From Gammaproteobacteria bacterium (GTDB lineage Bacteria > Pseudomonadota > Gammaproteobacteria > Arenicellales > JAJDZL01): DNA of 64,000 nucleotides. A model generated the notes under the pieces. The model made no database searches. It saw only the letters and a program-made list of their open reading frames with translations, and was not told the DNA's origin. The stretch covers positions 62,001 through 126,000 of the forward strand of contig JAJEHQ010000024.1 of the NCBI GenBank assembly GCA_022823625.1, in the 5' to 3' direction. Within the stretch, counting starts at the first letter, position 1; each line of letters begins with the position of its first letter. Made by a program: the position numbers and the translations under genes. This document shows, in pieces, positions 52,631 through 55,967 of this stretch.

Positions 52631-53380
52631 TTGTCCGTTAAAGCTCCGCGTATCACGATGATCAGGCTTCGATCAATTCTCTTTATGACTCTCTTGATCT
52701 TGCTGACGCTGGTATATTGGCCAGTGGCTGTCGCAGTTTATTTCTGTGAACCGCATTTTCGCTCGCGCGTCATTGGTGGTTGGGCACACGCCAACATCTG
52801 GCTGTTGAAGGTGATATGTGGATTGCGTCACGAAGTTGAGGGACTTGAAACCCTTCCGGATCAGCCGGCAGTTATCTTTTCCAAACATCAGTCCGCTTGG
52901 GAAACAATTGCTTATCAGACAATTTTCCCAGCACAAGCCTGGGTGTTGAAGCGATCTTTACTCTATATCCCATTCTTTGGCTGGGGACTCGCTGCAACAC
53001 ATCCGATCAAAATTGACAGAGCTACTGTTAGAAAGGCACTTGAACAGGTTGTTAAGCAAGGAATTGAGGTCTTAAAGGAAGGTCGCTGGGTTGTTGTGTT
53101 TCCAGAAGGTACTCGAATTCCACCAGGTGAGCACGGTACCTATCACGCCAGTGCTTCGTTACTTGCAGTTCGTGCCGGTGCACCACTGGTGCCAGTGGCA
53201 CACAATGCTGGTGATTTTTGGCAGCGTCGGGCACTTACCAAACGTCCCGGTGTCATTCGCGTCAGAATCGGTGAGCCCATTTACCCAGAACGAATGAAAC
53301 CCAGGGAAATGAACCAGCAGGCTGAAGCATGGATTCGAAAGACGATGCCGGAAATCAGCGACGCTTACTCTTCGGAATGA
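52631..53380 (+). CDS. plsC: 1-acyl-sn-glycerol-3-phosphate acyltransferase
   Basis: 249-residue inner-membrane enzyme making phosphatidic acid. An N-terminal membrane helix (SILFMTLLILLTLVYWPVAVAVYF) is followed by the acyltransferase motif I FSKHQSAWETIAYQ (the HX4E form, common in gammaproteobacterial PlsC), then motif III VVVFPEGTRIPPGEHG and motif IV PLVPVAHNAG. Start codon: the frame opens with TTG 52631; ATG 52658 (MIRLRSILFM) is possible. It is the third gene of glyQS-mazG-plsC; the IS1595-like element begins 26 bp after its stop. Confidence 0.92.
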   Translation: MSVKAPRITMIRLRSILFMTLLILLTLVYWPVAVAVYFCEPHFRSRVIGGWAHANIWLLKVICGLRHEVEGLETLPDQPAVIFSKHQSAWETIAYQTIFPAQAWVLKRSLLYIPFFGWGLAATHPIKIDRATVRKALEQVVKQGIEVLKEGRWVVVFPEGTRIPPGEHGTYHASASLLAVRAGAPLVPVAHNAGDFWQRRALTKRPGVIRVRIGEPIYPERMKPREMNQQAEAWIRKTMPEISDAYSSE

Positions 53381-53398
53381 GTTCGATTTTGAACGAAT

Positions 53399-53406
53399 TT
53401 ATATAC
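53399..53406. repeat. Left target-site duplication and inverted end
   Basis: TTATATAC adjoins the left inverted end. A second GTCACATT copy at 53456-53463 lies just inside the left end and may be a subterminal transposase site. Confidence 0.6.
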
Positions 53407-53490
53407 GAAAGTCACATTTTGACTTGATTTAGCCAGCGTGATTGTTTATACTATAGTCACATTCGACGCTATGGGAGACGAATAATAGTT

Positions 53491-53940
53491 TTGAAAAGAG
53501 CGCTAGGAAAATCGTGTCGAAAGGGTATGACGCTTGTTCAGTTAAACAATTTGTTCCCTAATGATGAAAAGGCTCGTGAGTGGTTTGAAAAGCTGATATG
53601 GCCGGATGGCCCAAAGTGTCCTTATTGCGGTTCTGAGGATGTTCAGAGCAACATCAAGCATCATTCCATGACTCATCGTTGCAGGGTTAAGGGATGCGAT
53701 GGCAAGAAGAAGATGTTCTCTTTGAAGATTGGCACGGTCATGCAGGGTTCAAAGCTCGGTTATCAAGATTGGGCAATCGCTATCTATCTTCTGACTACCA
53801 GCCTTAAAGCCGTCTCCAGTATGAAGTTGCACCGAGACATTGGCGTTACGCAAAAGACAGCGTGGCATCTGGCGCACCGTCTCCGCAAAGCCCACGAACT
53901 CGACAATACCGAACTAGTCTCTGGCTTTGATGCAGGCTAA
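53491..53940 (+). pseudogene. Truncated IS1595-family transposase (zinc ribbon and HTH only)
   Basis: 149 codons remain of about 300. The frame opens at TTG 53491, but ATG 53527 (MTLVQLNNLFPNDEKAREWF) is the family-like start. The zinc ribbon CPYCGSEDV...HRCRVKGC, MFSLKIGTVMQGSKLGYQDWAIAIYLLTTS and the helix-turn-helix SSMKLHRDIGVTQKTAWHLAHRLRKAHE match IS1595-type transposases. The frame stops at GFDAG just where the first catalytic Asp of the DDE domain would follow. The methyltransferase start is nine bases later, as if the R-M genes replaced the 3' half. Confidence 0.82.
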
Positions 53941-53949
53941 ACTGTTAGC

Positions 53950-54882
53950 ATGAATATCAAGCGAAAGCACGGACAGTATTACACACGAGGCAATCCATTT
54001 GCACTTGACCCGTTTCTGGAATGGTCGAACAATGTCGATCTTGCTTCAAAGCGAATTCTTGAGCCATTTGCAGGCGCAAATAACATCATCAAAACGCTGG
54101 AAAGAGACGGCTTATGCAGTCAGTTCAGTTCTTACGATATTGATCCGGCAAGTGAGCATGTCAAAAAGAGAGACACAATAGAGTCCTTTCCAAAAGGCTT
54201 CGATACTTGTGTGACCAACCCACCATGGCTGGCAAGGAATTCAGCGACTAGAAGGCAACTGCCTTATCCTGATACGCAATACGATGACCTTTACAAGCAC
54301 TGCCTGGAATTGTGCTTGAATGGTTGCCCGCACGTAGCAGCCCTGATACCTGCCAGTTATCTTCAAAGCGGACTATTCAGAGAAAGACTTCACGCCTATG
54401 TCCTGTTGCATGACCGAAGCATGTTCAACGATACGGACAATCCTGTTTGTCTGGCCTTGTTCAATGAACAAATTAGTGAGCAGATAAGCATTTACTACGA
54501 TAACAGGTTCATCGGGATTTTGGATGACTTGGAAAGCAAGTTGCCTAATCCAATGAATAAGCTGAAAGTGCGATTCAATGACCCCTCTGGAGAATTAGGG
54601 TTCATCTCCTTTGACAATACTCGTGAACCGTCCATAAGATTCTGTGATGCCTCCGAGATTGATGATTACGAGATTAAGGTGTCCTCAAGGTTCTTTACAA
54701 GGATCAGCGGAGAGTTTGAGAATATTCCCAGGCTCATAGCGCGGCTAAACAGGATGATTGATACGCTCCGAGAGGAAACGCAGGATGTTTTCCTGACACC
54801 ATTCAAAGGCATTAGGAAGGACGGTTACTATCGAAGACGAATGGAATTTAGCTTAGCAAGGAAACTAATCAATGCCTCATGA
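53950..54882 (+). CDS. Adenine-specific DNA methyltransferase (N6, class I)
   Basis: 310 residues. The N-terminal GQYYTRGNPFALDPF is typical of N6-adenine methyltransferases linked to restriction enzymes. Motif I (SAM binding) is RILEPFAGANNIIKTL, an acidic residue in SSYDIDPASE follows, and motif IV is the catalytic CVTNPPWLAR at about residue 93. The target-recognition part in the C-terminal half is unlike anything I recognise. It overlaps the next gene by 11 bases, a usual arrangement for type II modification-restriction pairs. Confidence 0.87.
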   Translation: MNIKRKHGQYYTRGNPFALDPFLEWSNNVDLASKRILEPFAGANNIIKTLERDGLCSQFSSYDIDPASEHVKKRDTIESFPKGFDTCVTNPPWLARNSATRRQLPYPDTQYDDLYKHCLELCLNGCPHVAALIPASYLQSGLFRERLHAYVLLHDRSMFNDTDNPVCLALFNEQISEQISIYYDNRFIGILDDLESKLPNPMNKLKVRFNDPSGELGFISFDNTREPSIRFCDASEIDDYEIKVSSRFFTRISGEFENIPRLIARLNRMIDTLREETQDVFLTPFKGIRKDGYYRRRMEFSLARKLINAS

Positions 54883-55531
54883 TTACGAAAGTGCCTATAA
54901 GGAAGCTTATAAAGTAAATACTGACGATACACCAAGAGCTGTTAAAGACGGTGAATTGGATGTGAAGATTGATAATTTCTGTGAACTACATGGTTTCGAT
55001 AGAGATGCTGTAGCTAAAGAAATTCAAGAGAACCGAATACTTAGTGCGATATTCGCTAAAGATCCAGCTAAGCAGAAGTTTCACGAAAAGGAAGCTGCGA
55101 GACTCATAGAGACCATTGATAACGTAGAGAACTTCACAGATCTGCATAATTGCAAGTTGTATTTGGTTGGCGGTGCTGTGCTTGATAGAAATGTGATTGA
55201 GTCAGGTGCATATCCAAATGCGAAAACGATAGACTTTGAATGGGTGTACAGAGGCTGTCGATTCTACGCTTCACATAAATACACGAAATCCAGTGGTGGT
55301 TCTCAGGGTAGCGCGTATAAGGACTTGCAAATGTTCATTATCGAAGCTAATCTTACAACGCTTCAGCAGACTTTCTTTATTGCAATCGCAGATGGGGCGT
55401 TTTACCAAAAATTGAATGGTAAAGCAAATACAACTCGAATCCAGAGGCTTAAAGATATGGCCAACAAAAGCAAAGTCTTTGCCTGTGAGATTACTGAGCT
55501 GGAAAGCCTAATGGACAATCTGACCAATTAA
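54872..55531 (+). CDS. Putative restriction endonuclease of the R-M cargo
   Basis: 219-residue protein with no motif I can name with certainty. An acidic/basic core is seen in KLYLVGGAVLDRNVIESG...AKTIDFEWVYRGCRFYASHKYTKSSGGSQGSAYKDLQMFIIEA; the Asp/Glu and Lys here could form a PD-(D/E)xK-like site. Function as the endonuclease is inferred from size, overlap with the methyltransferase and position as cargo. The recognition sequence is unknown. Composition is AT-rich compared with flanking chromosomal genes. Confidence 0.6.
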   Translation: MPHDYESAYKEAYKVNTDDTPRAVKDGELDVKIDNFCELHGFDRDAVAKEIQENRILSAIFAKDPAKQKFHEKEAARLIETIDNVENFTDLHNCKLYLVGGAVLDRNVIESGAYPNAKTIDFEWVYRGCRFYASHKYTKSSGGSQGSAYKDLQMFIIEANLTTLQQTFFIAIADGAFYQKLNGKANTTRIQRLKDMANKSKVFACEITELESLMDNLTN

Positions 55532-55692
55532 GAGAGTCAATTATTACGCTGACAACTCAAATTTCCACTCAAAGAAAATTTGTAGTTGAATAGAAAAATG
55601 GAAAGGAATACAAATTCAATGTGACTTGAGTTTGTGAGCCGGATGATGAAAACTCCCATAGAACTATGTATGACGATCAATGAGCTTGAACA

Positions 55693-55857
55693 ATGACAAG
55701 GCGAGACAAACCTTCAAAACCAACCATCGAAATCAAGCCCAATCGCTACCAGCCAACGCGCCAGGAATTGCGCAAAGATAACCGTATTCCAGCCACTCCT
55801 GAAGCACTTGCCAGAGCAGTCGGACAGCAGGTCAAAGTCAAAGAAGTCAAAGACTGA
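55693..55857 (+). CDS. Small IS1595-associated protein
   Basis: 54-residue frame MTRRDKPSKPTIEIKPNRYQ then PTRQELRKDNRIPATPEALARAVGQQ, ending KEVKD. Proteins with the pattern RYQPTxxEL..D..I.ATPEELARA are, to my recollection, common next to IS1595-type transposases. It sits just inside the right inverted end. Role unknown. A short GAACA-type leader precedes its ATG; no strong Shine-Dalgarno. Confidence 0.65.
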   Translation: MTRRDKPSKPTIEIKPNRYQPTRQELRKDNRIPATPEALARAVGQQVKVKEVKD

Positions 55858-55916
55858 ACTTTTCTAATTTTAATCAACTAGGAACGAGTTGATTCACAAT
55901 TTAAAATGTGACTTTC

Positions 55917-55924
55917 TTATATAT
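55917..55924. repeat. Right target-site duplication
   Basis: TTATATAT follows the right inverted end and matches the left 8-mer at seven bases. Confidence 0.6.
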
Positions 55925-55967
55925 AGCCCATTTTGAAAGCTTGAATGTTGCAACCAGAAACTTGTCG

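Follow-up and report, generated by a model that had tools for sequence, protein, structure and literature searches.

The window analyzed here is a 64,000-nucleotide stretch of a gammaproteobacterial contig. An element of 2536 bp lies in it at positions 53394-55929, with bounds set by the layout of sister IS1595 ends, between plsC (stop codon at 53380) and a convergent ORF. No gene was broken by the insertion; the initial annotation had already described a real element behind plsC without gene damage, but its limits of 53399-55924 were too narrow. The inverted core GAAAGTCACATTTT is perfect over 14 bp (53407-53420 and, inverted, 55903-55916), as that annotation had reported, but the true ends run further out. 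The left terminal repeat CGAATTTATATACGAAAGTCACATTTT (53394-53420, plus strand) and the right terminal repeat GGGCTATATATAAGAAAGTCACATTTT (55903-55929, minus strand) are imperfect inverted repeats, complementary at 22 of 27 positions, and sister IS1595 elements of the genus have ends built as GGGAATTATA plus a variable core. The 8-mer ATTTTGAA flanks the element on both sides with 8/8 identity (53386-53393 and 55930-55937), and when offsets of 0-19 bp outside the core were scanned, 13 bp was the only equal offset that gave an 8/8 direct repeat. A 7/8 target duplication, TTATATA, had been proposed instead. That candidate was ruled out, since TATATA is its own reverse complement and part of the inverted repeat, which is why the repeat appears on both sides; a palindromic TATATA within an inverted repeat is a practical trap that can mimic a target duplication.

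The element contains 4 ORFs on the plus strand. The first, tnpN (53491-53940), encodes the N-terminus of an IS1595 transposase, a zinc ribbon and a helix-turn-helix (HTH), without the DDE domain. PF12760 was matched with E = 3.5e-9, and NF033547, the IS1595 transposase model of 215 positions, was matched over positions 2-57 only. Alignment with full-length transposases placed the end of the tnpN ORF where the DDE domain begins, in agreement with the cut described in the initial annotation. In many IS1595 transposases of the genus (L066, L069, L074, and others), the frame is broken close to GGLEKNKH in the DDE domain. The second ORF, M (53950-54882), encodes an N6-adenine-type DNA methyltransferase with an NPPW motif, and the third, R (54872-55531), encodes a probable restriction endonuclease of an unclassified family. 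M and R overlap by 11 bp, in agreement with the earlier reading of 2 overlapping restriction-modification (R-M)-like genes. That reading had overlooked 2 features: S (55693-55857), which is the fourth ORF, and, at 53455-53463, a further copy of the inverted repeat (IR) core inside the element. S is a 54-aa accessory ORF with an ATPExLARA motif; small ORFs of 45-67 aa with such a motif recur in about 9 IS1595 loci whose cargo is unrelated (the window, L064, L069, L070, L074, L089, L091, L096, and L150).

Two traits of the IS1595 family were found in the element, namely the N-terminal zinc ribbon and the 8-bp target duplication. Inverted repeats of the family begin with GG; the 22/27 repeats of the element read GGG at the right end and CG at the left. 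The DDE_Tnp_IS1595 catalytic domain is missing, and the element is therefore a derivative rather than an autonomous member of the family. Forms of IS1595-family elements with passenger genes, such as tISCpe8 and MTnSag1 with lincosamide resistance, are known as tIS (PMC8101967, PMC5704250). Their trait of genes dispensable for transposition between IS ends is present as well, with M and R both within 53394-55929.

M provides the DNA methyltransferase gene expected of a type II R-M system, with its NPPW motif and a weak match to PF07669 (Eco57I-type; E = 3.9e-4, below the gathering cut-off). Relatives of M share 42-97% identity with it, and one gene at 43% identity is a plasmid gene annotated as a SAM-dependent methyltransferase. 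R is a probable restriction endonuclease: it is adjacent to M, weak PD-(D/E)XK model matches were obtained, and known restriction endonucleases fill its slot in sister elements. R adjoins or overlaps M in 3 diverged lineages, represented by the window and L006, by L112 (R 33%), and by L009 (R 27%), and no IS1595 ends were noted at the M-R pairs of L009 and L112. The relatives of M in L007, L008, and L010 occur without an IS and without R. Invariant residues of R include E72, D121, H135, K136, and D174. Pfam, NCBIfam, PADLOC, and PHROGs gave no useful family match for R, no homologue was found in viral contigs, plasmids, or 397 other genomes of the phylum, and a search of the PDB by sequence returned no relevant match; the R of L112 had one 27% match in an unannotated 636-kb phage record. 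AlphaFold2 models of R, built with 3 sequences, were of low confidence (pLDDT 46.6 and 50.9), and Foldseek searches with these models gave weak matches only, none at E ≤ 0.001, with BstEII, XisH, McrBC, and Nt.BspD6I among the top matches and several PD-(D/E)XK nucleases among them all. An R outside known families with poor models, and an M with a weak Pfam match, are points against the main explanation given below. The genome also carries a solitary methyltransferase, 73% identical to M and without R (L113; contig C44:83946-84866), with ribosomal-protein genes on one side and an ABC transporter gene on the other; this enzyme could protect against R.

We performed a cargo-blind search for related transposases in 80 genomes of the order, which gave 42 places; 30 were assessed and scored by hand, and the remaining 12 either ran into contig ends or were not retrieved. 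R-M genes of unrelated types lay directly downstream of the transposase in 20 of the 30 assessable loci, or in 21 if L094, whose methyltransferase matches PHROGs only, is included; 9 loci were without R-M genes. Several of the R-M cargoes are enclosed by inverted repeats, and target duplications were 8/8 in L069, L151, L152, L157, and L166; end delimitation leaves out L068, L079, L154, L156, L159, and the inner element of L074. In the cargo-blind sample together with other loci of the genus, the pairs were a D12 methyltransferase with SacI (L068) or HaeIII (L074), C5 with NgoFVII (L155), N4/N6 with CfrBI (L165), ThaI (L156), or an endonuclease VII type (L064 and L090), and an EcoRI-type M with GmrSD/HNH (L079). 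Fusions of the methyltransferase with HNH (L069, L152, L154, and L157) or T5orf172 (L095 and L159) and a long N6 methyltransferase (L158) were also found. At L074:4481-10038, the methyltransferase gene of one IS1595 element is split by a second IS1595-type transposase with a D12 methyltransferase and a HaeIII-type endonuclease. Among 9 plasmid IS1595 loci of other groups, none had an annotated R-M gene and 2 had PIN/VapC genes. In these 2 (L173:4412-5965 and L176:1713-3310), a hypothetical gene stands between the IS1595 transposase and the PIN/VapC gene, which is followed by an ORF of 61-62 aa; the set may be a toxin-antitoxin unit carried as passenger. The counts of 20 of 30 in the order and 0 of 9 on plasmids elsewhere indicate that R-M cargo is frequent here and do not imply generality beyond the order. 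Earlier papers already describe transposons that carry R-M systems (PMC8649781) and passenger genes on IS1595 elements (PMC5704250, PMC8101967). We found no description of R-M systems as frequent IS1595 cargo in a literature search of incomplete coverage, and an earlier description is possible. In this order, it appears that R-M systems are often carried by small IS1595 elements with a single transposase, many unrelated enzyme types occupying one slot, and such frequent carriage would help explain how R-M systems spread.

Truncated transposases precede R-M pairs in 3 cases: the window, L064, and L068. A possible route to this state is provided by L064 and L090. L090 has a transposase with a long frame (its first bases lost at a contig end), a Panacea-like gene, M, R, an S-like ORF, and a matching right end. 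In L064, whose M and R are 83% and 82% identical to those of L090, tnpN, M, R, and S are present and approximately 1.7 kb that includes the DDE region is missing compared to L090. This sister pair is consistent with an internal deletion of the DDE domain, the order of events being our reading of the two sequences. A direct autonomous parent of the window element was not found. The ancestor would have had a full transposase with M-R and S between ends recognized by that transposase. The catalytic DDE domain would then have been lost through an internal deletion, and the unit that remained would be non-autonomous and resident for a long time.

The age of the insertion was judged from relatives. 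In a sister species (L006; G005), the same block follows plsC at the same position, and its ends have changed. In 3 congeners (L035, L036, and L037), plsC and the same convergent neighbor are adjacent and the element is absent, which supplies the empty sites that the initial annotation had proposed to seek. The same-site copy together with the empty sites indicates that the insertion is not recent, and the earlier statement that the element had just landed is ruled out by the sister copy. A related proposal in that annotation was that the element is non-autonomous yet currently mobile, moved in trans by a full-length transposase. The IR core is intact and the target duplication perfect in the window, and intact IS1595 transposases are present in the genome, which speaks for such mobility; however, a search of the genome for these ends turned up no further copy, no full-length transposase closer than about 61% identity was found in the genus, and the insertion is an old one shared with a species in which its ends have changed. 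We consider current mobility very improbable. What stands of the earlier reading is an IS1595-derived, non-autonomous unit in which an R-M-like pair replaces the catalytic domain; that reading noted neither the selection on the truncated transposase, described next, nor the frequency of R-M cargo on IS1595 elements of the order.

The window and L006 were also compared for selection. Values of dN/dS were 0.18 for tnpN and 0.09 each for M and R, so that all 3 main genes are under purifying selection; S had 0.28 and plsC 0.10. For tnpN in this single species pair, approximately 12 changes at 351 non-synonymous sites compared to 15 at 96 synonymous sites (Fisher p about 6e-5) show purifying selection on what remains of the transposase, and the gene keeps an intact frame, its zinc-ribbon cysteines, and its HTH. 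The element had a dS of 0.14-0.21, below the 0.28-0.33 of its flanks (Fisher p = 7e-5). Inheritance may therefore not have been purely vertical, and exchange of the element between the 2 species after their split is possible. TTTGTTTATACTATAGTCACATT is the same in both except for one flanking base gained or lost at the left edge, and the leader CTATGGGAGACGAAT is identical in both, while the terminal repeats differ. Positions 55573-55650 of the window, between R and S, with an IR-core-like copy near 55617, are missing from the L006 element.

The leader suggests what TnpN could do. A promoter was predicted at 53424-53452 on the plus strand (TTGATT-17-TATACT) by a consensus scan whose matches are about as frequent in shuffled sequence; TATACT and its surroundings are identical in L006. 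The internal IR-core copy AGTCACATT (53455-53463, plus strand), a candidate operator that is also identical in L006, overlaps this predicted promoter just past the predicted -10. Taken alone, the core match in the window is modest (p about 0.01). The ends of L155 carry the same core as the window, with a core copy at the corresponding leader position, and L091 and L157 have another core that is repeated at their promoters; most sister elements are without an internal copy. By analogy, this arrangement suggests repression of the operon by the tnpN product in the manner of InsA or a C protein. tnpN, M, and R would be transcribed, probably as a single operon; TnpN, through its zinc ribbon and HTH, would probably bind both the terminal IR core and the internal copy that overlaps the promoter; and this binding may limit operon expression, in the way known of InsA in IS1 and of C proteins in R-M systems, a step that we infer from anatomy and selection. 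We propose, tentatively and with some doubt, that the controller of this R-M operon is the former DNA-binding half of an IS1595 transposase, with the transposon's own end sequence as its operator. This gives a testable case of a transposase DNA-binding domain turned regulator of a defense operon.

The same data bear on whether TnpN is only a relic, so that M-R is an ordinary R-M pair in a dead IS and the transposase fragment has no regulatory role. Decay is the fate of most IS copies, and the transposase is frameshifted or decayed in sister elements L069, L070, L074, and L079. In the window, however, the tnpN frame, zinc-ribbon cysteines, and HTH have been kept at the above dN/dS since the split from L006, and the leader and internal core are unchanged although the terminal repeats differ; we regard a relic as unlikely, if still a serious alternative to the controller role. 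Selection on tnpN could otherwise reflect inhibition of related IS1595 transposases in trans, a form of immunity to full-length elements, rather than regulation of M-R. Inhibition by truncated transposases that retain the N-terminus is known, for example from IS1 InsA, and the genome has 4 other IS1595-type transposase loci, 3 with long open frames; yet these copies are only 30-47% identical, and both of those with delimited ends (L094 and L098) have different IR cores, which makes an inhibitor improbable. Taken together, the data probably describe an IS1595 transposon that carries R-M genes and has been reduced by deletion, in which M would methylate DNA, R would cut unmethylated incoming DNA, and TnpN would bind the IR core and restrain the operon.

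Known systems share parts of this arrangement. In IS1, the promoter lies at the ends, and these are bound by InsA, an N-terminal transposase product of zinc-finger/HTH type that acts as a repressor. TnpN is likewise a zinc-finger/HTH-type N-terminal product, but it stands alone with the catalytic frame gone and precedes R-M genes, and its repressor role is a prediction. In type II R-M systems that use a C (controller) protein, the operon of M and R opens with the gene for this small DNA-binding protein. The position of tnpN before M and R is the same, whereas its product is a transposase-derived zinc ribbon-HTH protein rather than an Xre-type one, with a predicted controller role. The element resembles IS1595 and tIS elements in its zinc-ribbon transposase, 8-bp target duplication, passengers between the ends, and, at least on the right, a GG-type end (PMC8101967, PMC5704250); it differs in that its transposase is without the DDE domain, its cargo is an R-M pair, and the DNA-binding part is kept under selection. 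Tn7-like transposons also carry and spread R-M systems as cargo (PMC8649781), but those are multi-gene elements and the ones described here are small, single-transposase IS1595 elements. The PaeR7I R-M system in E. coli was moved by insertion sequences, with IS1 or IS5 forming co-integrates with the R-M plasmid (PMC3031569); in contrast to that co-integration of an IS with a plasmid, the R-M genes of the window lie inside the element's own ends.
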